From the NCBI GenBank assembly GCA_015179125.1, contig WHVA01000535.1:1-64000 (forward strand): a DNA stretch of 64,000 nucleotides, read 5' to 3'. The DNA comes from Gautieria morchelliformis. Lineage: Eukaryota; Basidiomycota; Agaricomycetes; Gomphales; Gomphaceae. The translations under genes were made by a program, and so were the position numbers. Positions 21,072 through 62,899 of this stretch are shown in pieces; the stretch's first letter is position 1, and every line of letters starts with the position of its first letter. The notes under the pieces were generated by a model. It had not been told where the DNA came from and did not search any database. It saw only the letters and a program-made list of their open reading frames with translations.

Positions 21072-21177
21072 GAGTATAACTTATGCGCGTGTCTCAGAAT
21101 GAGTAAGAATCGAGCACGAACCATTTCCTAGTTAAGCTTCGGACTACGCCGAACTACTCAACGCTCGTTTCCTAACA

Positions 21178-22009
21178 GATCACTTTCCTACTTCGTGGAT
21201 ATATAGCTCAGGCTTCAAGGTCCGAGTACAAAACGTTTGTTCGGTTGAAATTTGGCAGGTTCACGGTTTTAACATGCTCAACCATGATGATAGACTGGCC
21301 ATGGAATAATGTGCGAGTGCCAGTTTCACTGTGACTGTGTTGTCGGTACTGATGAAATATGATGAGATTTAGTGTAACGACGCGAGGAAAAACTATTCTC
21401 GTATGATGCACAGGGCTCGCTCATGCTTCCATGCTGTTATCAGAATACATCACTACAGCAGCATAACTTTGAACACCGCGTGTTGTCCGCGCAACTCCGC
21501 ATCTCAGCTAGTATTGGGCAGCAACCTGATCCTTGCAACCGTGATACTTCCTATCTGGAAGAGACTGTACACTCTGCGGGCTGAGCAACCTCTATCTAGG
21601 GTCTAGGCTGACATACCGATTGAGCTGTGAGTACGTGGTACTACTAGTAGGTCTCAAGACAGTTCAGGGACTATACTGGACCTGTACGTGACCTGGTATT
21701 TTTCTACTGGGTATTATCTGTCGTTGGTATTGACCAGAGTCTGTAGGTACTAAAGACACGTCTGGCTGGCGGCGTGACTATCGGACAACAAGAGTTTGAA
21801 CATCTCAGGAGTTTGAAACCCCTTCAAGTCCTAGTAGCGACAGTACACCTGATATCAATATCAGTACCTAGAATTGAAGGCTATAGACCCTTTAACAAGA
21901 TTATAAAACCAGAAATTCATGTGTTTGTGTGGCAGAGAAGTAGGCCGGTCAAGACTCAACCACTAAGTATTTCTGACATCAAATTCTGCAGAGCTCTCTT
22001 ACTCAATCG
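21178..22009 (+). repeat. Dispersed repeat R1, uninterrupted copy (3' end lost)
   Basis: 832 bp, from CTTTCCTACTTCGTGGATATATAGCTCAGG to CTCTCTTACTCAAT, nearly identical to 38382-38895 plus 43397-43719. It preserves the empty target site CTGTA (21682-21686) into which Copia-2 inserted in the second copy. At 22010 it is abruptly replaced by Gypsy sequence. There is no coding region; the class is unknown (it could be an LTR or a non-autonomous element). Confidence 0.8.
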
Positions 22010-22056
22010 CGGTGCTCGAGGCTCTCATGAAATGGGAGGACAAACTGCTGGGGTGA

Positions 22057-23865
22057 ATGTTCACCCTCGTCACAGACCACAAGGGGCTCGAGTACTTCGA
22101 GACCCAAAAGAGCCTATCTGACCGACAGGTCAGATGGTGGGAGTTTCTCTCCCGGTTCAATTTCAATACCATTCATGTTGACGGTATAGAGAACCAGGTA
22201 ACAGACTGCCTGTCGCGCTACTACGAGAGCGACACGAGTGATGACAATCACCCGGACCACGTCTTCGTAAACGCGGATGTGCATTTAGACCCGGACGTTG
22301 AGTTATTGCCCACCGACCGGTATGTCGAGTTGCGAACAGCGGCAACAAGACCCCCTAAACGCCTCCCTGAGAAGACAGAGGCGAGAGTAACGGAAGCCGC
22401 CGCATTAAACAAGGGCTCACCAGAGCCCGGGAACGTCGCCGCGTCCCGCGACGACGACAATGGCGTCAGAGCCATCACCGCAGGAAATGACGGCGCACCC
22501 CTGCACTGGATCGTCGAGCAAGGCGTAGACCTGTCTAAGGTCCTACGAGACGCGTACCACAGGGACACCATGTTCACAAACATCATGGCGCACCCGGATG
22601 CGCACCCGAAATTCGGGATCCGGGAAGGGCTGATCTGGACTAAGAATCAGCTCAAGAGAGACGTCATTGCCGTCCCCCACTCTGTTCTTCAAGGGGGAAG
22701 GAAGCTGATTGAAATTATCATCGATCAGGCACATCAGATAGTCGGCCACTACGGCCATCTGAAGACTTCGAACTACGTTCGGAGAGCATATTGGTGGGCA
22801 CGCATGAACCCAGACATAGAAGCGTTCTGCACCTCGTGCGCGAGGCATCAGATGATGAAAACCGGGCCACAACGGCCCAAAGGCCTGCTACACAGCCTAC
22901 CCATTCCAGATAGACTGTGGCAGTCGATTGGCATCGACTTCATGGGGCCCTTGCCCAAATCCAATGACTGTGACTACCTGATGGTAGTCATCGACCGACT
23001 AACATCGCTCATACACCTCGTACCAACCATGACGAGCATGTCAGCCAAGGGAGTAGCCTGGCTGTTTCTGAAGGAGGTCATCCGACTACACGGAGTTCCC
23101 GACTCCATCGTCTCGGACAGGGACTCAAAGTTCACGTCGATCTTCTGGCGTGAACTCCAGCGACTAATGGGGACTAAGCTCCTCATGTCAACTGCCTTCC
23201 ATCCACAAACGGATGGAGCAACCGAGCGGGCAAACCACTCAATCGGCCAGATATTGCGCGCAGTCGTCAGAGACGATCAGAAGGATTGGGCAGTGAAATG
23301 CCCAATGGTTGAGGTCGCCCTCAACAGCAACGTCAGCGCGACCACAGGGTTCGCACCTTTTGAGCTGAACCACGGCTATATGCCGCGGATAGACCTCCCC
23401 ATAGCCGCGGACACCCCGCTCAAAGGGGTGGCCCGGTTCGCACATCAGGCAAAATGGAACCTGATGGCGGCACACGATGCAATCATAGAGCATCGAGTGA
23501 CGCAAATGTTTCACGCAAATAAGAAACGTATGGCGAGCGACAGGTATGCGGCGAACGACCACGTCTACCTTTCGACACAAAACCTAACTCTCCCAAAAGG
23601 AAGAGCCAGAAAACTAGTCCCTTGGTACATCGGACCGTACCGCGTCGTCAAGGCTCACAAAAACGCCTCGACGGTGACCCTCGATCTTCCCGACGAACTG
23701 AGAAGCCGTCGCATTTCACCGGTCTTCCATTCAAGCCTCGTACGGCGATATGAGGCTAACAACTCGAATTGTTCCCTCGTCGCGAGGCCAAGTCATTTTA
23801 TGACTTCGGAGCAAATGACGACGAGGAGTGGCTCATTGACGAGATTATCGCACATCGATGGATAA
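22057..23865 (+). pseudogene. Gypsy pol remnant: RNase H tail and integrase
   Basis: The frame reads VTDHKGLEYFETQKSLSDRQ.RWWEFLSRF and IHVDGIENQVTDCLSR (RNase H, LTR type), then a linker, then an integrase with its HHCC zinc-binding domain (H226, H231, C258, C261 approximately) and DDE catalytic triad at about D294 (IGIDFMGP), D354 (VSDRDSKF) and E390 (DGATERAN). Upstream codons from 22010 (AVLEALMKWEDKLLG) are in the same frame but separated by TGA at 22054-22056. The 3' end loses its frame near 23768, by about one nucleotide, just before the chromodomain. The integrase core is intact but the element is dead. Confidence 0.9.
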
Positions 23866-24041
23866 ACTCGACGGACCTGGAAGTCCAGGTCTGTTGGACC
23901 CTAGGCGACGTGACATGGGAACCCATGTCGTCCTGCAAGGACCTTGAAGCCCTAGATAGCTATCTAGAGCTTCGGGGGTGGGCAAGCCACGCGACCTCCC
24001 CAGACGCCGCTAGACGCGTCTGTCACGTGCAGACCACGTGA
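23769..24041 (+). pseudogene. Chromodomain at the end of Gypsy pol
   Basis: In the frame shifted from the integrase frame the sequence reads DDEEWLIDEIIAHRWINS...VQVCWTLGDVTWEPMSSCKDL, which matches the chromodomain pattern (WxVDEI.DHR....YLVKWKGY...TWEP...L). Chromoviral Gypsy elements use this domain to guide integration. The continuity with the frame of the preceding ORF indicates a one-base frameshift, not a separate gene. Confidence 0.75.
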
Positions 24042-24136
24042 CACGCCGGCCACGACGCGGTTAAATTTTCGCCTCGGATCTTTCCGAGGGCGCATCGCTT
24101 CTTGGAAGCAACCACCACCATCATCTACCCACGAAG

Positions 24137-24715
24137 ATGATGCCCCCCAAAGATGGGATGGACGTTGACCCGTCAACATCTACAACGCGAACAACGGCCC
24201 CGAGACAAGGGGCCGCAGACATTCTACGTGCTCCAATAGACCACGAGCACTGGATGATCGTGGGATGGGAGGACGCCCTCGCCATCGTCCACCCGGACGA
24301 TTGCGCAACATGCGCAGACTACGCCATGCACCTTAGGGCCGCGATCGGCACCCGCAAGGTCAAATTGCGGGACGAAGACATCAGCGACGCCGTCGATGCA
24401 CCTTGGGGATGGCTCCCAAGGGGCATCGCACGTGACGCACGAGAAGAGCCCCTCCGGGACGTCCACGACCTTAAAAAAGAGGTCAAGGAGCTGGAACGCG
24501 CGGTCGAGGACCGCAACGACGTGCTCGTAACCGAGCGCGCCAAGATCAAGGAACTGGAGCAGCAGCTGAGTGCAGCCCAGCTCCAGGTTACCCTGGTCCA
24601 CGCTGCCTCAAAAAGGCCGCGACATGACCCGGCCACGGACCCAGTGGCCGGGCCATCTTCACCTCGCGCGACGGTGCCGTTGCCGGCACGTGCAGCATCG
24701 GGGCTAGCGTCCTGA
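24137..24715 (+). pseudogene. Gypsy post-pol accessory ORF, 5' part
   Basis: An ATG frame of 192 codons (MMPPKDGMDVD...) contains a strongly helical, probably coiled-coil segment (LKKEVKELERAVEDRNDVLV.., about residues 110-150). It begins about 95 bp after the chromodomain frame ends. A frameshift near 24715 moves translation to the frame ...APTPTMTTTEGQSAPSDSAYG..., which continues across the solo LTR into the part at 25300. I do not recognise the family. It is probably a structural or targeting protein of the element. Confidence 0.6.
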
Positions 24716-35936: not shown

Positions 35937-36860
35937 TTACAATTCTCTCATGGAAGGAGCCGGACGCGCCCGCGGAGGACGCGTAAAAGGCGGGGGAGTC
36001 GGAGCGGGCGGAGGGCTTGCGGCGGAGGGCGTGGTCGGAGTCTGAGGTGGGGGGCGACGGCGGGGTGGGGTGGGGGGGCAGTGTCGTGGCCTTGCGTTAG
36101 ATATGCAGAGAACCGTGGAGTGCCAAACGTGGCTGTTGACGAGGAGGCCGTGCCCGGGCGGGCGCGCGACGGGTGGGCGGGGACGACCTAGAGCTGGAGA
36201 TTGAGCGGGTGGTTCGGCTTTGCGGGGGGCGGGCGGACGACGATGAAGGTCTAATCTGATACGCGAGATCGTCGAGTAAAAGCAGGCTGAAATAGACCTG
36301 CCTCTTTCGAAGAGAGCTTTTTTTTTGTGCTTCTCATTCGAGTCTTCGGACACGTTGGGGCCGTCGTTGAGCCCCTGCTGGCTGGGCGCGTCGTCGGTGA
36401 GCTTGTCGAGTCTCTCGGCAAGTGCGGCGGGGAGGAAGGAGGAGAGTGTGGAGAGCATGTGGGTATAGCGGTTGGAAGAGAGAGGAGCATCGTGACCGGA
36501 AGCGGCGACGTCCCGCGGAACGGGGGCTCGGCGGGCATGGGCGTCGCCGTGGGAGATGGCGCCCAGGGTCCCGCCTGGTGAATACGAATCCGTGCAGCGC
36601 CCTGGCACAGCCCCCGTCCAAGACGCGCAGGCGCCACCAGGAGCCGTGCCGCCCACGGGGGACTCGAGCCAGGCGCTGTTGGCGGAGGATTGGGCGGTGG
36701 CGGCGGCGGCGAGCTTGGTGGGCGGGGTGGGGAGCGGGGGTAGGAAGGGGGGTAAGGATAAGAAGCCGGTGGGGCGGGGGCGGGGGCCAAGGATAAGGAT
36801 AAGAAGAGGGATAAGGACAAGGACAAGGATAAGATGGCGGCGGGGCTGTCGCAGGTGTAC
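35937..36860 (-). pseudogene. Gene X, copy 1 (unrecognised)
   Basis: A minus-strand frame matches the plus-strand frame at 46751-47310. Both share GHDAPLSSNRYTHMLSTLSSFLPAALAERLDKL and DGPNVSEDSNEKHKKK-like helical sequence, and proline-rich tails. Copy 1 lacks the segment HNIRPNTIV....HKRMLEIVDLALLEPAAVWF found at the end of the second copy. The frames shift between copies, so neither is clearly intact. The family is unknown. Because the region is very GC-rich, long open frames on both strands are expected and much of the apparent ORF (beyond the shared blocks) is probably spurious. Confidence 0.45.
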
Positions 36861-38381: not shown

Positions 38382-38895
38382 GCTTTCCTACTTCGTGGAT
38401 ATATAGCTCAGGCTTCAAGGTCCATGTACAAAACGTTTGTTCGGTTGAAATTTGGCAGGTTATGGTTTTAACATGCTCAACCACGAATGATAGACTGGCC
38501 ATGGAATAATGTTCGAGTGCCAGTTTCACTGTGACTGTGTCGTCGGTACTGATGAAGTATGATGAGATTTAGTGTAACGACGCGAGGAAAAACTATTCTC
38601 GTACGATGCACAGGGCTTGCTCATGCTTCCAAGCTGTTATCAGAAGGGCGGTCATACATCACTAGAACAGCATAACTTTGAACACCGCGTGTTGTCCGCG
38701 CAACTCCGCATCTCAGCTAGTATTGGGCAGCAACCTGATCCTTGCAACCGTGATACTTCCTATCTGGAAGAGACTTTACACTCTGCGGGCTGAGCAACCT
38801 CTCTCTAGGGTCTAGTCTGACATACCGATTGAGCTGTGAGTACGTGGTACTACTAGTAGGTCTCAAGACAGTTCAGGGGCTATACTGGACCTGTA
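38382..38895 (+). repeat. Dispersed repeat R1, left part of the second copy
   Basis: Near-identical to 21178-21686. The copy is split after CTGTA (38891-38895) by Copia-2 and resumes at 43397. Confidence 0.9.
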
Positions 38896-39117
38896 TGTGG
38901 AACGAAGGAGATATAATAATCTGATATTCTACGATCTCAAGTAGATCGTTCTGCCTTATATACAAAATATGATGTCCATTGTATTACCAATCCCTTCGAG
39001 CTGCTGTGCCAATGCGATGCCGGTGCACCAGCAACCCGGGGTTGAGAGCGATCTCGAACCTCCGGCTAAGTGCGTGCCGGCTCTGCCTTGGCGGTGTCAT
39101 CGTCCCGATTACTAACA
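38896..39117 (-). mobile_element. Copia-2 3' LTR
   Basis: 222 bp, TGTGGAACG..ACTAACA on the plus strand. Confidence 0.95.
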
Positions 39118-40466
39118 CTCCCCCTCAGCGAGAAGTCCCTTCGACAAAATCCTAATTTCCCTAATAGATACCTGTGTTGGTGTAAATCCAATCCCTTTGT
39201 AAATATGTCCGCTATGTTCTCCTTCGTCGGTATGTACGTAAGTGATGCCTCGTGAGAGGCCACTTTCTCACGGATGAAATGATATGCGACATTGATGTGT
39301 TTGGTACGCGGATGATACGTTGCGTCATGCGATAGTGTAATGGCGCCTAGATTGTCTGATCGAAGTGACGTGGGCTGGGTTTGATCGATTCCTACTTCCT
39401 CGATGAAACGCCTCAGCCAGATTAATTGCTTGGCGCCCTCGGTAAGTGCCATGTATTCGGCCTCCGTGGTAGATAGCGCGATCATTCGCTGCTTCTTCGA
39501 GCTCCATGCGATAGCTCCCCCTCCTAGTATAGCTACATAGCCACTAATAGATAGTGCGTCGTTTCTATTAGCATAATCTGAGTCAACGAATATTTCGAGG
39601 TCGAGACCAGTGTCTCGTCGGAAGGTTATGCCGTCGTCACGTGACCCCTTGAGGTACCTGAGCGCGTGCTTGATCACCGTCCAGTGCTCGGTTCCGTAAG
39701 TAGTAGTGAATTGGCTCAAGTGTTGTACGGTAAAAGCCAAATCAGGTCGCGTGCTGAGTGCTGCATACATTAGTGATCCGATCGCTTTGGCATAGGGTAC
39801 TTCGGCAGTTGGACCTGTTGAGTCCATGGGTGTCGTGAGTTTGATCATTTTATGCAGCGGTGTAGATACCGAATGAGCCGTTGTCATGTTGAATCGATCG
39901 AGTATGATGTCGATGTAATGTCCTTGAGACATGATCAGTGTTCCCTCATCCCTATTCCTCTCAACTCTAATTCCCAAGATTTTCTTCATTTCTCCTAAAT
40001 CTGTTAAAGGGAATTTTCCATGGAGCTCCCCCTTGAGCTTAATCATCCCTCCCTTGGAGTCAGCAAATAGTCTGAAGTCGTCCACATATACTGATATGAC
40101 TTCGATTGAATCCTTATCTTGTCTGATGTAGACGCATTCATCGGCTGTACTTTGATGGAAGCCGAGATCGAGTAGTAATTTGCGTAAGCGCTGATGCCAA
40201 GCTCGTCCCGATTGTTTGAGTCCGTAGAGCGCTCTGTATATTCTTAGAACGCGTCCAGATCCATCATCAAAACCGTCGGGCTGGCGCATGTAGATCTCCT
40301 CATCTATGGTTGAATTGAGGTAGGCGCCTTTGACATCCATCATTTCGATTTCCCAATCGAGTGTGTTTGCGATTGCTAATAGAACACGTAGTGAATCGAA
40401 TTTGACCACGGGTGAGGTTATCTCGTAGTAATCCATCCCTGGCCTCTGTGTGAATCCGAGCCACAA
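39066..40466 (-). pseudogene. Copia-2 reverse transcriptase and RNase H
   Basis: The frame contains GFTQRPGMDYYEITSPVVKFDSLR, LDWEIEMMDVKGAYLNSTIDEEIYMRQ, YGLKQSGRAWHQRL and the active-site box ISVYVDDFRLFA. RNase H follows: FVDSDYANRND.LSISGY, LSTTEAEYMAL, KHINVAYHFIREKV. Its last codons run into the 3' LTR. It is separated from the upstream frame by a frameshift at about 40455 (upstream frame ARVVAR, this frame GFTQRP). Catalytic residues look intact. Confidence 0.9.
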
Positions 40467-40542
40467 CCCTTGCTTTAGCCTTATCGAATTGTCCGTCCGG
40501 TTGTGTTTTGACAGCGTATACCCATCGGCAACCGATCGCTAC

Positions 40543-42507
40543 TCATCCGGGTGGTAGTTCTGTTAATTCCCATGTTCCTAATGTCTTGTGTTGATCCATC
40601 TCAATTTCCATCGCTTTCTCCCAGATCGGTGCATCATCACGTGATACCGCCGCTCTGTAATTCTCAGGTTCAGTGACGATTTCTTTCGTTATGTAAACCT
40701 CCTCGGTGCATCCTGAATCATTCAGCTTCCGGTAATCCGGTCTTTGGGTGATACGCGTGCTCCGTCGAATCTGTGGAGCTGGCGCTTGTTCAGGTGGATC
40801 AGGAACAGGTGTTGTCTGGGGTGATGACGTCTGTGGGGTAGATGTGATCGGGTCCAGCACATGCTCGCGCGGTGAGTGCTCCCCCTCGAGCGGTGCCGTG
40901 TCGTTATCGTCGTTATCTGGGATGGGGTAGAGTCGGTTGTCATTTTCGTCAAATGTAATGTTCCTAGAGACTTGAACGTGCTTTGAGGCTTTATTGTAAT
41001 ACCTCCAGGCTTTTGCATGTTCTGATACTCCGACGAAGATATGTTCTTCTGCCTTTGGATCAAGTTTGGCTCGACGTTGATCCGGCACCATAACCCAACA
41101 ATTTGTTCCGAATTCCTCTAGACGTGCTATGTTCGGCTTCTTGCCGAATAGTGCTTGGAACGGCGTTGCGTCATCTCCAAGCGCTCGCGTGGCTGATCGA
41201 TTTTTGATATAGCACGCGTAAGCCACGGCCTCGGGCCAGAGTATTTTTGGCAGGTTCTTGGCAAATATCATTGCCCGTGCGTGCTGGAGTAAGGTCCGGT
41301 TGAGTCGTTCGGCGATTCCATTCTGGGCTGGGGAGTATGGAGCTGTGGTCTCCATGATAATGCCATATTTTGCACAAAAATCCTTGAAATTTTTATTGAC
41401 ATATTCCCCTCCATTATCCGAGCGAAACCTCTTTAGTTTCTGACCTGTTTGGGTCTCGAGGAATGCCTTGTACGTCTTGAAGTGTTTGAGCGCTTCATCT
41501 TTGGTGCTCCCGAAATAAATGACCGTGTACCTAGATTTGATATCCGTGAAAGAATAAAAGTATTTCTCATGCGATGGTCCCTCGGTCTGGGCAGGTCCCC
41601 ATACATCGGATACTGTTAGGTCACCGACCTGTTCTACAGTGTCCTCGGCTCTTTTGGGGAATGGCTCCACATGCCGTTTGCCTTGTATGCATGCTTTGCA
41701 CTGGCTCGGCTCGTTTGACTCGTCGATCTCAAGTCCGGTGACTAGATCGTTAGATTTCAACATCTTTATAGAATTTATGTTGACGTGCCCGAGTATCCTG
41801 TGCCATTTGTCCCATGACCGTCCTTTTGCCGCTGCGGCAAAGTCCCGTGCCTCGACTGATCGAGTGACCGGGGCCTTCATACAGAACAGCCGCCCGCGCT
41901 TCTGTCCCTGTGCGAAGGTAACTCCGGCGCGTGATTTGAATTCAACGCCGGTGCCTGAAAATGTGGCCGTGTTACCCTTATCAGTTAAACGCCCTACACT
42001 GATAAGGTTGTTCGGCGCATCTGGTGCGTGTTTGACGTCACGTAGCTCGATCGTGTTCGTCTTGGCGCCGACCTTGAATTCCATGTAGATCGTGCCTCGG
42101 CCTTGTGTATGTAGTACCGCATCAGGTGAAATTCCTTCAATTTCCGATGGATCCTCGGCATAGCTAGCGAAATCATTTCGGCTTCTAGCTATGTGTGTTG
42201 TTGCCGCTGAATCGGCTAACCAGTCGGATGCAGATATAGCACTGTATGCTACCTCCTTAGATACAAATGCGAAGTCCTTTTCTTCTGCTTGTTTGACTGT
42301 TTCTTTGTTCCCTGATTTGAACCATGTCGGTGCTTGGCCCTCCTTGCCGCCACCTTTCGCCCAGCAGTCTTTCACGTAGACCCTTCTTGCCGCAATTTCG
42401 GCACTTTCCTTTTGTTGCTCCTGAGTCATCTTTCCTGGTTCTGTGACGTTGTTGCGCCTTAAGCGCCGTCTGCCGTGCCGATCCAGCTTTCCGTGCTCAG
42501 TCCTCAT
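40543..42507 (-). pseudogene. Copia-2 zinc knuckle, protease and integrase
   Basis: Order: protease (WLADSAATTHIARSRNDF, where D-S-A-A replaces the usual DSGA), GAG-pre-integrase (WHRILGHVNINSIK...CKACIQGKRH), integrase core with FTDIKSRYTVIYF (D), RFRSDNGGEYVNK (D) and YSPAQNGIAERLNRT (E), then a variable linker and the start of RT. It ends ELPPG-TGA; the next codons are VAIGCRWVYAVKT, so TGA replaces Arg. At the 5' end the CCHC knuckle (CRNCGKKG..VKDC) is split between two frames by one extra base near 42384. Confidence 0.9.
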
Positions 42508-43084
42508 CGAGGACCCGAGCTATTAATATATCAGCTGTTGTCCCGGCTCCACTGGCGTTTACTGCCATAATAAACGCCGACCAAGAATCTGGTAATGACG
42601 TCAGCAACGTGTTCGAGAACTCGGTGTCACTGATGTAATGTCCCCGCGCATTCAGTTCCTGTTGAATGCCGCGGAGCTTGCGTACGTGCTCCTCCATGTT
42701 CTCGCCGTCCTCGGCAAGCGTCCTGAAGAAATCTCTTCGGAGATTTACAATCCCCACTGCTCCCTTTGATTCAAATATTGCTTGTAGACTAGTCCATACA
42801 GCAAATGCAGACATCGTCTGATTGATGTAAACTAGTTGTTCATCGGCAACTCTGAGGCAAATCTCTTTTCTAGCTTTCTTGTCCTTCCTTCTCCAATCGT
42901 CGATTTCCTGCTGTTTGGTCGCAGTGACGTTGATGGCATCTGCCGGTCTCGGTTCCGTCTCCCTGCCGATAGCCACGTCCCACAGATCTAAATCATCGAG
43001 TATCCACTCGAGCCGCCGGCGCCACGCCGCGTAATTATCCCCGTTCAAGGGGTCGATCTTGTACGTGTTGTTGCTACTCGACAT
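42497..43084 (-). pseudogene. Copia-2 gag
   Basis: 195 codons from ATG at 43084: IDPLNGDNYAAWRRRLEWILDDLDLWD, VYINQTMSAFAVWTSLQAIFES, LRRDFFRTLAEDGENMEEHVRKLRGI: a Copia-type gag (UBN2/Retrotran_gag families), forming the virus-like particle. It ends ILIARVLDED-TGA, and the same frame continues ARKAGSARQTALKAQQRHRTRKDD into the zinc knuckle, so the stop replaces an Arg codon inside gag and not at its end. Confidence 0.9.
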
Positions 43085-43174
43085 CGTCGATCGGTTATTG
43101 AGCCGTTGGAGTATAGAGCGTAGTTGGAGTAAGCTAGATGTGTAATAGTTTAGTTATGGCCGGGGCCCATAACC

Positions 43175-43396
43175 TGTGGAACGAAGGAGATATAATAATC
43201 TGATATTCTACGATCTCAAGTAGATCGTTCTGCCTTATATACAAAATATGATGTCCATTGTATTACCAATCCCTTCGAGCTGCTGTGCCAATGCGATGCC
43301 GGTGCACCAGCAACCCGGGGTCGAGAGCGATCTCGAACCTCCGGCTAAGTGCGTGCCGGCTCTGCCTTGGCGGTGTCATCGTCCCGATTACTAACA
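43175..43396 (-). mobile_element. Copia-2 5' LTR
   Basis: 222 bp, same ends as the 3' LTR. Confidence 0.95.
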
Positions 43397-43719
43397 CTGT
43401 ACGTGACCTGGTATTTTTCTACTGGGTATTATCTGTCGTTGGCATTGACCAGAGTCTGTAGGTACTAAAGACACGTCTGGCCGGCGGCGTGACTATCGGA
43501 CAAGAAGAGTTTGAACATCTCAGGAGTTTGAAACCCCTTCAAGTCCTAGTAGCGACAGTACACCTGATATCAATATCAGTACCTAGAATTGAAGGCTATA
43601 GGCCCTTTAACAAGATTATAAAACCAGAAATTCATGTGTTTGTGTGGCAGAGAAGTAGGCCGGTCAAGACTCAACCACTAAGTATTTCTGACATCAAATT
43701 CTGCAGAGCTCTCTTACTC
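43397..43719 (+). repeat. Dispersed repeat R1, right part of the second copy
   Basis: Continues R1 after the Copia-2 duplication and ends CTCTCTTACTCAAT, exactly where the first copy is cut by Gypsy sequence at 22010. Confidence 0.9.
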
Positions 43720-43946
43720 AATTTTCATGAAAGTGGATCATTTTGTACCTAAGCTGCTTACTGATGAGCGAGTAAGCTGACAAGAGGCAATTCTGAGGCG
43801 TTCGCTCACGGTGAGCGAGCGTATTTTCAAACTCCTACGTTGTGTCGGATGCTCTCTCCTAGTACAGTTACGTGGAAGTGCGAGACATAATCCCCATTGG
43901 CGGAACTGTTGCACCCGTGCATTCCCGTACGAGTCGTACGAGAATG

Positions 43947-44010
43947 ATTTTATGCTGGAGGGTAACCGACTCTGTCTCGGACAGAGTCGGTTGACCCTCC
44001 AGTATAAAAT
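43947..44010. promoter_or_regulatory. Large near-perfect palindrome ending in the TATA box
   Basis: ATTTTAT(G)CTGGAGGGTAACCGACTCTGTC (43947-43976), loop TCG, then the inverted arm ending CTCCAGTATAAAAT (43980-44010). The arms pair over about 30 bp with one mismatch and one bulged base. The TATA box (TATAAA, 44003-44008) lies in the right arm, 49 bp before the ATG of the next gene. Directly upstream is GTACGAGTC-GTACGAG (43928-43943), a short direct repeat. Confidence 0.75.
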
Positions 44011-44056
44011 CTGCCCTGCTACGTCCGCATCCTAAACCAACTTGTCTACTTCCACC

Positions 44057-45098
44057 ATGCACGTCCCCTCTTGCCTAAGCCCAAGCAACGTTCGCAAGAG
44101 GTTCACGAAATTTACACGCACGCTGTCTCCGCTCCTACCCTTCTTGCCAGTCAAGTGTGACCGCCCGTATCCTGCATCAACAACCACAACAGCCCCGAGC
44201 GACAGCGCACGAGCCCCAAACCACTTCGCGGTTCTTTCGCGCCCAGGTATGTTCTTAAACCATATGCTCGTAAGTCTTGTCTGACACGCTCCAGCCCCAG
44301 ACGACAGCGCACGAGCCCCAAACCACTTCGCCGTTGTTTCGCGCCCAGGTATGTTCTTAAACCATATGCTCGTAAGTCTTGTCTGACACGCTCCAGCCCC
44401 AGACGACAGCGCACGAGCCCCAAACCACTTCGCCGTTGTTTCGTGCCCAGGTATGTTCTTAAGCCATATGCTCGTAAGTCTTGTCTGACACGCACCAGCC
44501 CCAGACGACAGCGCACGAGCCCCAAACCACTTCGCCGTTGTTTCGCGCCCAGGTATGTTCTTAAACCATGTGCTCGTAAGCCTTGTCTGACACGCACCAG
44601 CCCCAGACGACAGCGCACGAGCCCCAAACCACTTCGCCGTTGTTTCGCGCCCAGGTATGTTCTTGAACCATCTCATCGTAGGTCCTGTCTGACAACGCAC
44701 CAGCCCCAAACAGCGCACCATCATACTCGGTGTTTAAATTATACCCTCAGTCAGACTCACCCCCCATCCAAGACATCCTCGCGTTGCATGCTCATGCTCA
44801 GCTCGTCGAGGTGGCAATCGATATGCGGCACTTTTCACACCATGCCGAGCTACTCAGGACAAATCCGAAGTGTGAAGCACCAGAATGCATTCCAAAGGTG
44901 CGCTGTCAATTCCTGCCTTCTCCTCCCCAGTGTTCTCACATGACCGTGGGTTGTGGCAGCCTGAATCCCCATGCCTTCGGCGCAGGACGCCAATCTGGTA
45001 CGCCGCCCGGCGACAAGACGGACTCGGAGCGACAAAACGCGACAAACATTGCGCCGCGAATTTTGATACGTCCCGTGTATGTAGTCAGACGCGTTTGA
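44057..45098 (+). CDS. Gene with five tandem 54-nt repeat exons (unrecognised protein, 266 aa)
   Basis: Exon 1 runs 44057-44246; repeat exons 44295-44348, 44397-44450, 44499-44552 and 44601-44654; the last exon is 44704-45098. The first repeat unit forms the end of exon 1 (44193-44246). Every intron is 48 or 49 nt, starts GTATGT, has TCTGAC near its end and stops at CCAG. All introns are phase 1, each repeat exon is 54 nt, and the spliced frame (801 nt with stop) stays open throughout, while reading through an intron hits TGA. The repeat encodes APDDSARAPNHFAVVSRP. The N terminus is basic; the last exon continues the same frame (VFKLYPQSDSPPIQDILALH, CEAPEC, ending VYVVRRV). I see no signal peptide or known domain. 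A TATA box and palindrome lie upstream. It is intact as modelled, but expression is unproved. Confidence 0.6.
44193..44703. repeat. Tandem repeat, 102-bp unit, five copies
   Basis: Each unit is one 54-nt exon plus one 48-nt intron. Units 2-5 differ at only a few bases; unit 1 and the last intron are more diverged, so the array grew by copying from within. Confidence 0.95.
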
Positions 45099-45275: not shown

Positions 45276-45779
45276 ATGAGTGACCCTGCTGCTGTCCGCA
45301 GACAACTGAAAATCAACTGGATCCGTCAAGCGGTGAGTACTTGCCTATGCCTCTCTGTTTGACTGAATGCTACCACACTCAACCAAATGCCCTGGCAGAA
45401 TACTAAAGGAGTACAACATGTACAAGACAGAGGCGGAGGACCAGCAGCGAAGAGTAGATAACTACATTGCGGATGCCGCGGATGAATGGGATATCAAGAA
45501 CCAGGTATGCCGTTTTGCGCTTGGGGGTTGATTCATTTATGTTGAAGTCGCGATAGCAAAAGCTGCTTGTGGAGTCGCAGAAGATGATCCCGGAAACTCA
45601 GAAGCGTCTTGGGACTGCAGTATCCGAGTTGCGAGAACTAGTGGTGAGTGGACTGGATATTAGCCATCTCCAACCACTCATGTCCTGGCACGCCCAGATC
45701 AGTCACTGCCAGGCCGACGCTCTCCACAGACGAGGACCTTATGAAGGCAGAGGAAGCACTGGAGGAGGCAGGTATCTGA
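45276..45779 (+). CDS. Tubulin-specific chaperone A (TBCA-like), frame unresolved
   Basis: Recognisable blocks of tubulin cofactor A, a small helical chaperone that captures beta-tubulin: MSDPAAVRRQLKINWIRQA (exon 1, ATG at 45276, donor GTGAGT at 45333), ILKEYNMYKTEAEDQQRRVD...DEWDIKNQ (exon 2, donor GTATGC), KLLVESQKMIPETQKRLGTAVSELRELV (exon 3, donor GTGAGT), and TDEDLMKAEEALEEAGI-stop (45779). Length and order fit the family (about 110 aa). The exon 1/2 and 3/4 junctions do not join in frame with the AG acceptors I can see, so either the splicing differs from my model or this is a damaged copy. Confidence 0.7.
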
Positions 45780-46247
45780 GACACTTGCGTTGGAAGACGA
45801 CATGCAGGGTAATCAACGATGTCCATCCGACTACTGGAGCATCAATTTTGATGTCCCTATTACGATTGTCGATATTCGTGCGTGACCCCCAAGCAGATAA
45901 CCTCCTCAAGCCCAGCCAATATCCCAGCCTGCACCTCAAGAAGAGGACGTGACCTCCCAGTTTCCCTAGGGAACTACTAGGTGTAACTGACTCTCCACTT
46001 AGCCTCTAGGAGACAAACCTACAAACTGTAGATTATTGGCTAATGATCAGATCTCCGAGGCGAGGACTAACGCTGGTAACGTGTCGACCCTGGACACAGA
46101 TGCAAAACTTATTACATGTTACACGACATGCTCTCCCTGCGCGGTACTAATCTCCACCGCTAACTCCGTATACGATCGACGCAGATCCCTCCCCACTCAA
46201 TTCCCGTTCACTAACCCCGCTTGCCTCAACGGCGAGTCTTGAGACCT
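45780..46247. other. No gene recognised
   Basis: Sequence between the TBCA-like gene and R1 copy 3. No motif or splice pattern is convincing. Confidence 0.4.
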
Positions 46248-46672
46248 AGGTACTAGTAGTACCACGTACTCACAGCTCAATCGGTATGTGAGACTAGACT
46301 CTAGAGAGAGGTTGCTGAGCTCGGAGAGTGTAGGATCTTCCAGATAGAAAGTATCACGGTTGCAAGGATCAGGTCGCTGCAATGGCTATCCGAGACTCTG
46401 AGATGCGGAGTTGCGCGGACAGCGTTCAAAGTTATGCTGCTAGTGATGTATTCCTTCGGAGAACAGCTTGGAAGCATGAGCGAGCCCTGTGCATCGTACG
46501 AGAATTATTTTCCTCGAGTCGTTACACTAAATCTCATCATACTTCGTCCGTACCGACGACACAGTCACAGTGAAACTGGCACTCGAACATTATTCCATGG
46601 CCAGTCGTCTATCATTCGTGGTTGAGCATGTTAAAACCATGAACCTGCCAAATTTCAACCGAACAAATGAAT
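46248..46672 (-). repeat. Dispersed repeat R1, partial inverted copy
   Basis: About 425 bp, the reverse complement of the R1 5' half (shared blocks include GTACCACGTACTCACAGCTCAATCGGTATGT and AATTTCAACCGAACAAA). More diverged than the other two copies, with indels, and lacks the 3' half. It directly abuts gene X copy 2. Confidence 0.75.
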
Positions 46673-46750
46673 AACCGGCCTACCACCTCATGAGTGGGCA
46701 CTGGCACCTGCAGGCACTGGGTCTAATGTTGCAGAAACTATCCTGGTCGC

Positions 46751-47595
46751 GTGTGCTTCTTGATCTCGCGCATGGGCTGCATCCGGGCGCGGAAAGCAGA
46801 CCCTGGGCGCCATCTCCCACGGCGACGCCCATGCCCGCCGAGCCCCCGTTCCGCGGGCGCCGCTTCCGGTCACGATGCTCCTCTCTCTTCCCACCGCTAT
46901 ACCCACATCCTCTCCACACTCTCCTCCTTCCTGCCTGCCGCACTCGCCGAGAGACTCGACAAGCTCGACGACGCGCCCACCCAGCAGGGCCTCACCGACG
47001 GCCCCAACGTGCCCGAGGATTCGAACAAGAAGCACAAGAAAAAAAGGCTCTCTTCGAGCGAGGCAGGTCTATTTCGGCTTGCTTTCACTCGACGATCTCG
47101 CGTATCAGAGTTGACCTTCATCGTCATCCGCCCGCCCCCCGCAAAGTCGCACCACCCGCTCAATCTCCAGCTCTGGCTCGTCCCCGCGCACCCGTCGCGC
47201 GACCGCCTGGGCACGGCCTCCTCGTCAACAGCCACGTTTGGCAATCCACGGTTCTCTACAGATCTAGCGCAAGGCCACGACACCGCCCCCCTCCACCTCA
47301 GACTCTGACCACGCCCTCCGCCGCAAGCCCCCCGCCTTTTACGCGTCCTCCGCGGGGGCGTCCGGCTCCTTCACGTCCTTCGCGTACACTGCCTCCGCCC
47401 GCCGCACGATCATCCCCCTCTATCACCGCGCACAACATCCGCCCCAACACCATCGTCGGCGCCGGTGCCGACGCGCGCGTCGCCCGCTCCCACAAGCGCA
47501 TGCTCGAGATCGTGGACCTTGCGCTGCTCGAGCCCGCGGCGGTGTGGTTCGACAAGGACGGCATGCCCTGCGCGCGCGCGCACATCAGGATCTAA
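46751..47595 (+). pseudogene. Gene X, copy 2 (unrecognised)
   Basis: A longer copy of gene X than the one at 35937-36860, in the opposite orientation. It shares GHDAPLSSHRYTHILSTLSSFLPAALAERLDKL and DGPNVPEDSNKKHKKK, and adds a C terminus with AHNIRPNTIVGAGADARVARSHKRMLEIVDLALLEPAAVWFDKDG, which looks like a folded domain, ending with TAA at 47593-47595. At least one frame change separates the two coding parts (near 47040, a run of A). The family is unknown. Confidence 0.5.
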
Positions 47596-56687: not shown

Positions 56688-58568
56688 AGATAGATAGTGG
56701 GATCGAAGCATTGCAGGAACAGGGTGCCAAGCTCAGCCAGTCAACACAGGACATGAAAAGTGATGTCCAATACTTGCAGAGACAGACTGCTGAGAATAGC
56801 CAAGTTATGGAACAAGCCAAATTGTGTATGTCACATGTTCCCTGTGTTTCCAAGGTGGTAAGCTGATTCTGCAGCCTTCAATATGTAGAAGAGCATCGTC
56901 AAAAGGTCTATGACTGGTTGGCAGCTCCTAATCATCAATCAAAGCATAGAAATGCATGTAGTATGCGACAGGAGACGACAGGTTTATGGTTTGTGCAAAA
57001 CAAACACTTCCATGAATGGCGAGAAGCCCCGCATTCATTCCTTTGGCTCCATGGTATACGTGAGTCAGCTAAGCTGCACTATTCTGCTTTCCATTAATAG
57101 ATTGTCACAGCTGGCGCAGGAAAAACAATCCTTTGGTATGTATATCGTAATCATTGTGAAATTGGTCTTATCTAACAAATGAATGCATGAAGCTCAACCA
57201 TCATTGAAGAACTTTCAATTCACTGCAGTTCCAACCCCTCCCTCACAATAGCATTTTTCTATTTTGACTTTACCAACAAGGACACCTTTTCAAATGCTGT
57301 GATTCGATCTCTGATCAAGCAATTGTCTGTACAATGCATGAGCATCCCCCCCACCCTGGAATCACTATTCTCTAAGAATGGGCAGGATGGCACAGACCGA
57401 GACCCAGGTCAAGAGGATTTGATGTCAACCTTCAAAATAATCATCAGGAGCTTCCAGGCAATATATCTTGTTTTTGATGCACTTGATGAATGCCCAGAGC
57501 GATCCAGCTTTCTGAAAGTGCTCAGGGAAGTACATGATTGGAAGCTGGATACATTACACCTGCTGGCAACTAGTCGGAAAGAGGGAGATATTCAGAAGGC
57601 ACTTGGTGGCTTGGTTTCACATGAGGTACCAATGGACAAGTGTCTTGTTGATGGTGACATCCAAGTGTATGTTTCCAGGAGAGTTGTGGAGGATATTGAG
57701 TTTAGGATGTGCTCAGCAGGTGAGAAGGAGATGGTAATGACTACCTTGATGCAGGGTGCGCAAGGGATATGAGTTGTTATTTCCCTGCATGTGAATGCTT
57801 TCTGACAGAACAGCAAGGTTTCGATGGGTTGTCTGTCAACTGGACGCACTATGTAAATGCAAAACTCCTGCGGCACTCAAGAAAGCACTCACCTGTCTCC
57901 CAAAGACACTTAATGAGACATACGATCGAATTCTTGCTGCTATTGATGAGGATGACAAGCAGGGTGCTTTGGGCCTGCTGAAATGGCTGGCTTTCTCTTT
58001 TGACACATTATCTTTGGATCAAGCTGTGGACGTGATCGCTACAGATCCTGATGCAATAGATGAACCTCTGTTTGACCTGAGCCGGCCACTTTGGGATCCA
58101 CAAGACATCCTTACGATATGTTCGAGTCTTGTTACCATTACATTCCCCGAGGACAGCAGCAATAAGAGCGATATTGATCACCATGACGACAGGGTTCTCT
58201 CCACAGAAGCGGGAGAAATCAGGCTGGCACACTTTTCCGTGCGAGAATACCTGATCTCAGAACATCTTCGCACAAGCACGACACTTTCCTGTTACCATTT
58301 TAACGAAAAAATTGCACATGTATGCATTGTGAAGACATGCCTGGCATACCTGCTGCAATTTGACCAGGATAATGGTATGAACTCAAATACAGCCAGGTCC
58401 TATCCACTATCTCCGTATGCTGCATATCAGTGGATGGACCATGCTGGGTGGGATCCGGCTGGTGACTGGGATGATCTACATGGGCTGATCATGACACTCT
58501 TGGAGCCCACTAGTTCTGTTTATGTCAACTGGATATGGCTTTACTGTAGGAGAGATCCACGGGCATAA
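56688..58568 (+). pseudogene. NACHT-ankyrin gene: NACHT NTPase region
   Basis: Exons read EEHRQKVYDWLAAPNHQSKH, HSFLWLHG, then Walker A as VTAGAGKTIL (57102-57130), SLTIAFFYFDFTNKD, Walker B as IYLVFDALDECPER (57460-57500), LLATSRKE (sensor), and after an intron FRWVVCQLDALCKC...LPKTLNETYDRIL and IRLAHFSVREYLISEHL, the post-NACHT helices standard in fungal NLR-like proteins. The order and motifs are complete. The junction before Walker A is not in frame, and the donor near 57771 reads AT for GT. An in-frame TAA (58566-58568) precedes the ankyrin part but lies inside a possible 51-nt intron (58546-58596). Confidence 0.8.
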
Positions 58569-59915
58569 TTTGGGACGACTCCTCTTTACTTTGCAGCCAA
58601 GACTGGGTTGGAACGAGCATGCCAATGTCTGGTGCAGAAAGGATCAGACATGAATGCACCTGGAGGATACTATGGCACCCCACTGCAGGTGGCAGCATTC
58701 CAGGGTCATGATATGATTGTCAGGTTACTCCTAGAGAAGGGTGCAGATGTGAATACAAATGGAGGAGGCTGTCAGAGTGCGCTGCTGGTGGTGGCATCAC
58801 TAGGTCATGGTACGACTGTGCGGTTGCTCTTAGATAATGGTGCAGATGTGAATGCAGATGGATCACCCTATGGTAGTGCCCTAGAGATGGCGGCAGCAAT
58901 GGGTTATGATATGATTGTACAGTTGCTCATAGAGAAGGGTGCAGATGTGGCCGCTCATGGAGGAGGCTGTAGGTGTGCGCTGGAGGCTGCGGTGTCACAT
59001 GGTCATGATACAACTGTCCTGCTGCTCCTAGAGAAGGGCACAGATATGAACGCTCACAGAGGATACTATGAGCGTGTGCTTAAGGCAGCAGCATCACGGG
59101 GTTATAATACAATTGTCTGGTTGCTCCTAGAGAAGGGAGAGGATATGAATGCACATGGAGCACACTATGGGAGTGTGCTGAAGGTGGCAGCTAAAAATGG
59201 TCATGATACCACTGTCCTGTTGCTCATAGAGAAGGGTGCAGATGTGAATGCTCAGGGAGGACACGATGGGAGTGCACTGCATGTGGTGGTGATAAAGGGT
59301 CATGAACGAATTGTCAGGTTGCTCCTAGAGAAGGGCACGGATGTCAATGCTCAGGGGGGATACTATGGGAGTGTACTACAGGTGGCGGTGTCACAGAGTT
59401 ATTGGCATGTGTTGCCAGTGGTGGTGTCACAGAGTGATACAATTGTCCGGTTGCTTCTAGAGAAGGGTGCAGAAGTAAATGCTCATGGAGGATGCTATGG
59501 GAGTGTGCTACAGGCAGCAGCATCAGAGGGTTCTGATACAATTGTCCGGTTGCTCCTAGAGAAGGGTGCAGATGTCAATGCTCAGGGAGGAGAGTATGGG
59601 ACTGCACTGATTGCAGCAGCAGATAGTGGTGATGAGATGATTGTCTCGTTGCTCCTAGAGAAGGGTGTTGACATGAATGCTCAGGGAGGACACTATGGGA
59701 GTGCACTGCATGCGGCAGCATCACAGGGTCATGATACAATTGTCCGGTTGCTCCTAGAGAAGGGCGCTGACATCAATGCCCAAGGAGGAGTGTATGGTGG
59801 TGCACTGCAGGCAGCAGCGGTAAATGGTCATGATGCAATTACCTCATTGCTGCTGGAGACATCTGTGGCAGTCCCCAACGTACACCCACATACAGCATTT
59901 CCAGAGTTGAAGTTG
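58569..59915 (+). CDS. NACHT-ankyrin gene: ankyrin array (about 12 repeats)
   Basis: An open stretch with 33-34-residue ankyrin repeats of consensus GxYGSALxAAAxxGHDTIVRLLLEKGADVNAQG. The first is TPLYFAAKTGLERACQCLV; the rest run to about 59870. One repeat has an internal insertion of a dozen residues (about 59400, YWHVLPVVVSQS). Repeats are similar enough to suggest recent duplication. The end (VPNVHPHTAFPELKL) is not ankyrin; it resembles the linker before the WD40 domain of Tup1 and is spliced through a 72-nt intron (59916-59987, GTGCGT..AACAG, phase 0) to the next exon. Confidence 0.85.
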
Positions 59916-59987
59916 GTGCGTTGCCAGCCCTGCATTAGACAACTTTCCACCCCTCAATGTGCTCATCCCCCTTTCTTCTGATAACAG

Positions 59988-61670
59988 GGATCAGGATGGG
60001 CGGCCACTTTCAGCAAGCATGTCCCACAACGCCAAGTAGATGTGGATTTGGTGCATACACTAAAGCATGATCAGAAGAGGTGAGTCACCATGGTTGAGGT
60101 GTTTTGGGACCATAGATTTGGTTTTGGCTGTGACAACCTTGGATCTGATTCATACCTGCACCTTCCAGCATTTAATGGTCTGTCCGCTTCTTGGCTGATG
60201 GGCGCTACCTTGGGACTGAGTCCTGTCATGCGGAGATATATGACATGGTCACCGGAGAATGGACATGGTGAGTGATCGCCTCATCTTTCACTTTACCTGC
60301 ACTGAACCTCTCACTTTCCTTCATCTCCCCACACAGTGACCACACTCCCAACAGTGTGTTCAATGATGATGCTGTCACCTTTCTCTCTGACCTCAACATC
60401 CAAAGCATGTGCTTTAGCCCTGACAGACGCTACCTTGCAATGGGTGGTAACTATGACAAGATTGATGTGCGTGTTTCATCATGTCATGTGCTGACATCCT
60501 TCATTTACCTTTTCACCTACTCCTTGATTCTCTCTAACTCCCACAATATGCACTCATATATGCACTATGTGCTTTCTTCCACCTGCACATTTATCCCTTG
60601 CAACCCATCCTCCCTTTGTGTGACAATACTCTCAGATATGGGAGATTGCGACCAAGCGCCTCCTCTCCAAACTTGAGGGTCATAAACAATGTGTTTCCTG
60701 CCTTGAGTTCTCTCATGATGGCCGCCTCATCATTGCCAGCTGCCGGGACACCACTGTGTGCATCTGGAACATTGAGACTGGGCAGTACCGGACACTGTCA
60801 GTCACAATACCAGTGAACGTGTGTCCTATTGTCACATATTGCCACGTGCGGCATGCTGATACATGTCATTGTGTGTATGTGGGTGTTGATGCCTGGGTAT
60901 GGTGTGTTTTGTGTTGGTTTTGGATTGCATTATTTAGCTCAGTGCTGACATATTCCCTATCTCCATCTCTCCTGATGGGGCCCTCATCGCAGTGGGCTAC
61001 TATGACACTATCATTCGCCTCTGGGATGTCCAAATGGGAAAACTCATCGAGTCCCTCGTGGGTCACACTGACAGTGTGTCCAGTGTGGTGTTCACACCTA
61101 ATGGAATGGGCCTTGTCAGCGGGGGCTCAGACGGGAATTTGAAGTATTGGGATTTGAGGCCATTGCTAAGCAGTGTGCAAAGAGGGGTGTTGAGGCAGTC
61201 GTATGATGTGGGTGAGGATGTGGGCTTGGCTGCAGAGAAGAGTGGGCAGAATGAAGGTATGTGTGTGTGTACAGTCGAGTTTATGGGCCATATGGTGAGT
61301 GGCTGCCTGTGTTACCTTTTGCTTCCTTTGCTTGCTGTCCGGCTTGTAAATCTTCACTCTTCATGAACTGTGATACTCATTAGTATGGATGTAGGGTGCT
61401 GTGAGCTCCATTGCCGTGTCACCTGACAACCAATGGGTCGTATCTGGTTCAGATGACCGGAGTGTGCGGTTCTGGGACCTGTGCACAGGGGAAGAACAGC
61501 TCATACTGCATGGACACAGGCAGGGTGGTACGTCCCAGTGTGTTTGTATCATGCATGTGTATGACTCATTTCTCATGGCACAATGTGTACAGGTATGCAC
61601 CCACCTGTAGTTCTTTCTGTTGACCTGATCCAGACTGGAGGCATGCTGGCCACAAGTGGCAGGGACGGGT
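59988..61670 (+). pseudogene. Tup1-like WD40 domain exons fused downstream of the ankyrin array
   Basis: Exons resemble the C-terminal propeller of the Tup1 corepressor and its lead-in. They read GSGWAATFSKHVPQRQVDVDLVHTLKHD, VRFLADGRYLGT...[146 protein letters not shown] and [21 protein letters not shown]. Most introns have GT..AG and keep frame. The exon after 60178 carries an in-frame TAA (SI-stop-WSVRF), and the last blade is missing. The Tup1 tetramerisation domain is absent, so this is a copied tail and not the native gene. Confidence 0.75.
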
Positions 61671-62227
61671 GTGTGAATTTATGTGTGTGCTTGTCGCTTG
61701 TTCATACAAGACACTCATGTTGATGCTGATGGGTCAACTTGCAGGGAGCTATATGATGCTACAATGATGGTGGTGGGAAATATGTAAACTTGAGCAATGT
61801 TTTTCCCTGCCCTCAGCTCTCACTTCCAGCTACAGCTTGTGACCTGTGGCTTTATCATTTCTGAACTTTCCTGATGATGCACATGAACCATTCCATCTGC
61901 ATGATGATTATTAATTCTTTTTCATTTTTCATGTACTGTGTGACACATATGTCTAGCTATATCCAGTTATGGTACAGCACTACATGGCACAGTGTGAAGC
62001 ATGTGCACTCCTCATAGTTGTTTCTTTGGAAGATCAAATTGGTCCAAGCAGCACTGGAGGTATAGAAACATTTTCTGGTCTGAAAAACTGTTCAAAAAAC
62101 TGTAAAGATTTTCCAAAATATTTTACTGTTTTTAAAACTCTCAATCCCAAAAAAAGACTGAAAAACAAAGTGCAAAAAACTGTAAGAAAAGTGTAAGAAT
62201 TTGGAGTATAAGTGAGGTATGAGCTTA
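61671..62227. other. No gene recognised
   Basis: AT-rich 3' sequence after the WD40 exons; several A-runs (62090-62200). Nothing identifiable. Confidence 0.45.
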
Positions 62228-62899
62228 TCACATGTTGAATTGTGTGCACACATCAGGCTGGTCGCATGAAAGGAGCTCCCCTGTGCCTGCATTCCACACA
62301 CGGATGGTCTGGTCACCAGACCCGGAGACAATCTGCTTGCCATCCTGCGAGAACGTGACCGACATGACCCAGTCGGTGTGGCCTTCGAATGGTGCTGAAA
62401 GAAGCTCCCCGGTGTCTGCATTCCACACATGGGTTGTATTGTCACCACACCCGGAGACGATCCGCTTGCCGTCCTGCGAGAATGCGACCGATGTGACATA
62501 GCTAGTGTGGCCTTCGAATGGTGCTGAAATGCCCTCCCCGGTGTCTGCATTTCACACACGGATCGTGGTGTCAAGAGACCCAGAAATGATCCGCTTGCCA
62601 TCCTGCGAGAATGTGACCGACGCGGCGTAGCTAGTGTGGCCTTCGAATGGTGCTGAAAGGAGCTCCACGGTGTCTGCATCCTATACACGGATAGTCAGGT
62701 CATGCGATCCTGACATGATGCGCTTGCCATTGGGCAAGAATGGTACCAATGAGACACCGAGGTTATGGCCTACCAAGGCGTTTTTGATAGCTGACCACAT
62801 CTCTAGTTTCCCTGTCTCTATGCGGAGTAGTCTGGGAAAGTCTGGGAGGTACGTCTGTGACACTAGGGAATTTTCAGGTGCAAACGGGAGTGCCGACAC
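62228..62899 (-). pseudogene. HET-E-style WD40 repeat remnant
   Basis: The minus strand from 62899 reads ALPFAPENSLVSQTYLPDFPRLLRI, the usual lead-in to the WD40 domain of Agaricomycete NACHT-WD40 proteins, then four very similar repeats of the form LLSAPFEGHTxxVxSVxFSQDGKxIxSGSxDxTIRVWNADTGE. One repeat has TGA for Trp (IRV-stop-NADTGE, about 62555), another has Val-Ser changes that shift its frame (HATSLM). The gene ends in mid-array. The NACHT part is missing, cut off where the LTRs at 62960 begin. Confidence 0.75.

Follow-up and report, generated by a model that had tools for sequence, protein, structure and literature searches.

Can the unit of a minisatellite be a complete exon together with a complete intron, so that a gene changes length by whole exons? 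The question is raised by a tandem array in Gautieria morchelliformis, a fungus placed in the Gomphales, which an earlier note on the same DNA had read as a gene built from exon-intron units. The alternative is a noncoding minisatellite, untranscribed or unspliced, in which chance splice-like motifs were copied along with the unit and frames are open because the copies are young. We analyzed the array within its window, i.e., the whole stretch of 64,000 nucleotides (contig C599), and searched the G. morchelliformis genome (122 Mb in 1113 contigs).

Tandem Repeats Finder, applied to the 64-kb window, places the array at 44190-44708, with a period of 102, 5.1 copies, and 95% matches. The array consists of five units of 102 to 103 bp, each with one intron of 48 to 49 nt (GTATGT..CTGAC..CAG), and its GTATGT donors lie at 44247, 44349, 44451, 44553, and 44655. 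Spliced to the CAG sites, the gene has exons of 190, 54, 54, 54, 54, and 395 nt and introns of 48, 48, 48, 48, and 49 nt, all in phase 1; the donor context in the array introns is AG/GT and the acceptor is CAG/CC. The spliced frame is then 190 + 4 x 54 + 395 = 801 nt, i.e., 266 codons plus a stop, ending at 45098, and the claimed frame meets a TGA in every intron if read through. Both the coordinates and anatomy given in the earlier note (five units, 54-nt exons, phase 1 introns, and an 801-nt frame) and its statement about read-through were reproduced. The proposed gene comprises the following parts, with the basis of each in parentheses.

44057..44246, plus strand: first exon, 190 nt, from the ATG to donor 1, its final 54 nt being the first repeat exon (same start and donor in two public models of other copies, P0002 and P0003)
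44247..44294, plus strand: intron 1, 48 nt, GTATGT..CTGAC..TCCAG (splice signals)
44295..44348, plus strand: repeat exon, 54 nt, APDDSARAPNHFAVVSRP (splicing model and copy comparison)
44349..44396, plus strand: intron 2, 48 nt (splice signals)
44397..44450, plus strand: repeat exon, 54 nt (splicing model and copy comparison)
44451..44498, plus strand: intron 3, 48 nt (splice signals)
44499..44552, plus strand: repeat exon, 54 nt (splicing model and copy comparison)
44553..44600, plus strand: intron 4, 48 nt (splice signals)
44601..44654, plus strand: repeat exon, 54 nt (splicing model and copy comparison)
44655..44703, plus strand: intron 5, 49 nt, of a second sequence type (..ATCTCATCGTAGGTCCTG..) (splicing model and intron comparison)
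44704..45098, plus strand: last exon as proposed (copy comparison and public models)

The array is one of many copies. Its repeat DNA matches 23 pieces of its own genome, the last exon 21, and the upstream part 59 (palindrome self-matches and weak pieces included). Sixteen copies, counted over the stretches fetched and the window, contain the first exon and reach at least the beginning of the last one. Fourteen of these were parsed; the other two (L020 and L021), in which an insertion of ∼3 kb splits the array and one unit has a broken donor (TTATGT), are left out of all array counts. The parsed copies contain 41 introns of 47 to 51 nt, all with donor, CTGAC, and acceptor, and this retention of signals despite length changes of 1 to 3 nt is not expected of an unspliced minisatellite, although the parser required such motifs and the counts therefore lean toward them. 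The window and L009 have four internal exons each, L012 has three, five copies have two, and six have one. Internal exons are 54 nt long, or 33 nt in L009, L012, and one L016 copy; exceptions of 53 nt occur in L015, which lies ∼1 kb from a contig end and has scattered one-base gaps, and in L018 and L019, which are 99.2% alike over 6971 bp. One copy each of L010, L016, L018, and L019 has an inverted unit inside exon 1, which lengthens that exon from 190 to 268 nt (+78) and leaves it open. L022 (contig C259) has a lone diverged unit on its minus strand (∼3833-3953), near retroelement-like sequence that matches window positions 22006-24297.

Two pairs of near-identical copies differ by exactly one unit, with the caveat that assembly errors could change unit counts. 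L013 and L017 (99.6% alike over 2487 bp and 98.1% over 2336 bp) are 102 bp apart, and L009 and L012 (99.1% over 4341 bp and 96.3% over 1275 bp) are 103 bp apart. The 103-bp unit carries a 49-nt intron, and the frame is therefore kept only if the intron is removed. The gain or loss of a whole unit, predicted earlier to change the protein by 18 residues without breaking the frame, is thus seen between copies in the same genome. The array has sequence features of tandem exon duplication: by its signals the unit is a complete exon with a flanking intron, and the repeat exons are symmetric (54 or 33 nt in phase 1, apart from the 53-nt exons of L015, L018, and L019). Like variable internal tandem repeats in segmental duplications, it differs in repeat number between near-identical paralogues. 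As far as sequence comparison can establish it, the reading as exon-intron units that change in number as wholes is well supported.

Gene models in the public record bear on the same junctions. Four G. morchelliformis proteins (P0001 to P0004, from contigs C292, C799, C680, and C282, respectively) belong to this family of copies, and their gene models are deposited predictions. P0002 runs from the first exon through two repeat exons to the last exon via introns of 51, 48, and 51 nt, exactly at the array junctions, and exits the last exon by an additional 61-nt gap. P0003 uses two 48-nt array introns and stops within the final one, and P0001 shares the final 49-nt intron, preceded by odd junctions. 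Three, two, and one array junctions are therefore used by P0002, P0003, and P0001, and each model departs elsewhere from the gene as drawn in the earlier note. That the same junctions were picked in three copies argues against chance motifs in a minisatellite, and the proposal of exon-intron units gains support from these predictions as well as from the splice signals in the copies.

The last exon fares less well. In 10 of the 14 copies, the same spliced frame extends into the part of this exon at ∼44704-44898. Beyond ∼44898 its structure is uncertain: the frame varies among copies, and public models put other introns there. The window has a one-base deletion of its own in this exon, a run of four C's compared with five in all 12 of the other aligned copies that include the stretch. 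Because this deletion underlies the C-terminal stretch, which is encoded by the window copy alone, and because the public models disagree on the 3′ end, the last exon and C terminus proposed earlier are not supported as drawn.

How readily could such motifs arise by chance? The strict pattern (GTATGT..CTGAC..YAG, 40 to 80 nt) has five matches on both strands of the 64-kb window, all inside the array, whereas a loose intron pattern has 29 matches on the plus strand and 15 on the minus strand. In 5000 dinucleotide shuffles of one unit, the strict pattern appeared once and the loose pattern 83 times, 28 of these with a usable frame. Since the five units are copies of each other, they represent one unlikely event rather than five. 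The explanation as a noncoding minisatellite can draw on that single event and on the 28 shuffles; the rarity of the strict motif tells against it. On this and the evidence given below, we regard it as unlikely.

Open reading frames discriminate less than might be supposed. With introns kept, a plus-strand frame of 260 amino acids is open at 44161-44943 and a minus-strand frame of 233 amino acids at 44032-44733, and all three frames of the unit exon are free of stops, a point in favor of a noncoding array; openness by itself is therefore weak evidence. Across the array only, each of the 14 copies has, after splicing, an open frame on either strand, compared with 6 of 14 (plus strand) and 8 of 14 (minus strand) when introns are kept. 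The spliced frame reaches the conserved stretch of the last exon in 10 of 14 copies, the plus-strand frame with introns kept in 2, and the minus-strand frame in none, and coding with retained introns and coding on the minus strand were rejected on these counts. Measured from the ATG to a point 195 nt inside the last exon, the DNA lengths of the copies fall into all three classes modulo 3, whereas in 11 of 14 copies the spliced lengths share a single class. Four of the 14 copies, including one close to a contig end, have lost the frame. Frame evidence drawn from these comparisons favors splicing but is not overwhelming. Among other readings of the DNA, folding of the RNA of one unit was not unusual (z = −1.18), Rfam at gathering thresholds and ARAGORN gave no matches over the window, and the minus-strand frame had only subthreshold matches in Pfam.

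One relative, L039 (contig C282), lacks the 102-bp unit, and the first part of its gene runs directly into the last. L039 has its own tandem duplication, 168 bp apart, which can be interpreted as an exon of 96 nt with an intron of 72 nt, in phase 1 and in frame. The public model from this contig, P0004, has the same GTTAGT donor as this reading but a later start, another frame, and an acceptor 5 nt further on. Intron-bearing duplications may therefore have been acquired twice at one spot in the gene, and that a different duplication likewise admits a phase 1 reading into exon and intron is a further point against a noncoding minisatellite. A more elaborate proposal treats the locus as a length dial, in which minisatellite units, exon skipping, and isoforms at CACCAG acceptors would together give a ladder of proteins, with the L039 cassette arising independently at the same spot. 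A second CACCAG lies 21 nt into the repeat exon in other copies and not in the window. If the proposal were true, the ladder would have steps of 18 (or 7) residues, from one to four internal units and RNA isoforms, but we consider it improbable.

What carried so many copies through the genome? The surroundings of the gene in the window contain the following elements.

38436..38869, plus strand: left arm of the long inverted repeat that encloses the gene (88% like 46236-46667)
38896..43398, minus strand: copia-type LTR retrotransposon, just upstream in the segment (LTRs at 38896-39119 and 43175-43398, 99.6% alike)
43946..44011, no strand assigned: 66-bp palindrome just 5′ of the ATG, found in other copies too (genome matches)
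45276..45779, plus strand: TBCA-like (tubulin-binding-cofactor-A) pseudogene directly 3′ of the gene (2-bp deletion in exon 1 relative to L039)
46236..46667, minus strand: right arm of the long inverted repeat around the gene (pairs with 38436-38869)

The TBCA neighbor bears on the age of the spread. All 14 dispersed loci that have its exon 1, including the window, share the 2-bp deletion, and L013, L014, L015, and L017 have a further 4-bp gap; in L039, TBCA has its own ATG and reads intact, while L041, also on C282, has a stop in the first exon. Nevertheless, no indel occurs in exon 2 (14 loci), exon 3, or exon 4 (13 loci each), and changes in exons 2 to 4 show no synonymous excess (4 of 29, compared with 6.5 expected). 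Most simply, the dispersed segment would descend from one founder in which TBCA was already dead, and the segment would be young enough for the dead gene to be still tidy. If a dead TBCA looks tidy through youth alone, the open frame of the array gene carries less weight, and this is a point for a noncoding minisatellite.

Under a further reading, the array gene would form the 5′ portion of a longer gene whose transcript is spliced to the TBCA exons, giving an N-terminally extended TBCA. The two lie on the same strand and in the same order in the copies compared, and P0004 links the shared last-exon region to TBCA exon 1 in L039. However, the P0004 junction spans ∼386 nt, has weak sites, and loses the TBCA start; TBCA in L039 has an ATG and open frame of its own; and all 14 dispersed loci with exon 1 are frameshifted. 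We give this extension hardly any credence.

The nature of the copied segment was considered separately. The 434-bp inverted repeats around the gene suggested a DNA transposon, but the flanks beyond them are common to many copies; this idea was rejected, and the copied unit is therefore larger. A subtelomeric origin was likewise set aside, as the exact 4-fold TTAGGG pattern is found on C60 only and lends no support. The stretch to the right of the gene (window positions 46675-47595; also 35953-36570) is itself dispersed, with 53 matching pieces in the genome, and the frames tested in these two stretches had no Pfam match. Elsewhere in the window, 9960-13371 and 17664-21072 form an inverted repeat with 3.4-kb arms (98.8% identical) around an epimerase-like frame (PF01370) at 13412-14134, and parts of this repeat flank other copies of the array segment. 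The left part of the segment occurs a second time, truncated, at 21178-22007, where it lacks the copia split and ends beside a frame with gypsy/Tf2-type integrase domains. Frames with NACHT-like (NPHP3_N) and ankyrin domains and 99-bp repeats, together with a WD40 frame, occupy 57191-59981 and 60624-62761, with 129-bp repeats nearby.

If the array is spliced, is its protein maintained by selection? Such a protein might be a functional repeat protein whose length variation is useful, e.g., a symbiosis-related effector or surface protein comparable to the repeat effectors of variable length in other fungi, and a published account describes the host as an ectomycorrhizal fungus (PMC7550596). Exon 1 provides evidence for this: 16 of 34 changes among copies are synonymous, compared with 10.2 expected (P = 0.020), in the claimed frame only, and the excess persists without L020 and L021 (12 of 23; P = 0.018). 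Neither the repeat exons (5 of 24 classified changes) nor the last exon in its 5′ part (6 of 25) has a synonymous excess; in its 3′ tail, the last exon has 0 of 6 in the claimed frame compared with 4 of 6 in the +1 frame. Relative to L039, omega for the last exon is 0.38 to 0.45 in the claimed frame, though it is 0.47 to 0.51 in the +1 frame; for exon 1 it is 0.88 to 1.63, against a lower 0.41 to 0.53 in the +1 frame. Comparisons of the last exon with L022, L010, and L018 give 0.49 to 1.17. A third-position test on pooled regions gave 38 of 84 changes (P = 0.015) but is not taken as proof because the regions were pooled post hoc and the copies are related.

The synonymous-change tests excluded gapped sequences by rule (which removed L039 from that of exon 1). 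L015 was omitted when exon 1, the last exon, and the 54-nt unit exons were tested (in the unit-exon case, its own units) and when exon and intron variability were compared; the last-exon synonymous test omitted L011, L009, L012, and L039, and that of the tail also omitted L022. With L015 left out, the unit exons differ more between copies than the introns do (mean pairwise differences of 0.126 and 0.070), which speaks for a noncoding minisatellite, and splice-motif positions are less variable than the remaining intron at P = 0.10 only.

Coding constraint on the array gene is weak or absent. Searches of Pfam and NCBIfam with the array gene gave no match, and inspection by eye, with no predictor, found no clear signal peptide. 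Together with the loss of the frame in 4 of 14 copies, these results make a functional protein under selection decidedly improbable. Two protein searches (8000 candidates scored in each) returned G. morchelliformis proteins only, with one and four matches. The earlier suggestion of a length-variable repeat protein can be kept for the variation, since length changes by whole units between copies, and not for a functional protein.

The explanation that we prefer, with a probability of roughly two in three, is that the array belongs to a young, G. morchelliformis-specific gene or gene remnant that was dispersed as the passenger of a duplicated segment and whose minisatellite unit is one exon plus one intron. 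Under this explanation, a gene beside TBCA would have been carried through the genome within a transposon-rich segment, its middle being a minisatellite in which each unit of 102 to 103 bp holds a complete 54-nt exon and a complete intron of 48 to 51 nt. The pre-mRNA would be spliced at the array sites, and unequal recombination between units would add or remove one exon together with its intron. Because the repeat exons are a multiple of three and the introns are in phase 1, each such change would amount to 18 residues and keep the frame. Many copies may be on their way to becoming pseudogenes. As an exon-intron structure, the array is better supported than the earlier note could know; as a functional gene, it is less so.

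The locus offers a compact and recent case of tandem duplication that multiplies introns along with exons, with many paralogous steps in one genome. Those steps are preserved as copies with one to four internal exons, as a relative without the unit, and as similar pairs one unit apart. Since the 103-bp unit is harmless only if spliced, the copies could be used to test the shielding of repeat arrays from frameshift by introns. They also carry a warning for fungal genomes rich in transposons, where a gene model may turn out to be the passenger of a duplicated segment.

Several known systems resemble the array in part. Near-identical introns occur many times in one genome as fungal introner-like elements, as outlined in a review (PMC3443670), and the array introns share this repetition within a genome. 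Matches to the two intron types (21 and 13, with at most three mismatches and no gaps) are all on contigs of the array family, and the idea of an introner was rejected because of this confinement. The same review describes how tandem genomic duplication creates or multiplies splice sites and how “imprecise” intron gain adds coding sequence (PMC3443670). L039, which lacks the 102-bp unit but has a duplication of its own, resembles a counterpart without the intron at that spot, either from before a gain or from after a loss. Unlike such intron gain, the array has CAG/CC rather than AG/GT at its acceptors, and its unit already holds a complete intron.

Rows of 54-bp exons in collagen genes are old and fixed, and the exons start with whole Gly codons. 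In fibrillar collagen genes, unequal recombination is one route named for the extension of these rows, and the array shares with them rows of 54-bp exons that encode 18 residues each (PMC4450265). The array differs in having no Gly-X-Y in its translation, phase 1 introns, no homology, and variation between copies. SP7-like effectors of arbuscular mycorrhizal fungi have tandem repeats that vary in number and, in the members covered by that account, a conserved intron before the first repeat (PMC11333574); the array has one intron per repeat rather than a single one ahead of the repeats, and no SP7-like sequence was matched by the protein searches.

The closest described case found is that of human genes within segmental duplications whose internal tandem repeats are variable (De Grassi and Ciccarelli 2009; PMC2812944). 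There, as in the array, units are of minisatellite size, their number varies among recent paralogues, and the frame is mostly kept, and variable repeats at exon-intron boundaries can make introns. The array differs in that each unit holds a whole exon and a whole intron, up to five in a row, in a fungus and an orphan protein. In the literature searched, no published description of the array-gene family was found. The earlier statement that no such family was known stands for the sequence within the two protein searches, and the human repeats limit it for the kind (PMC2812944). The sequence family is best filed as an orphan, and the process as one of a known kind: tandem exon duplication inside a recent segmental duplication.
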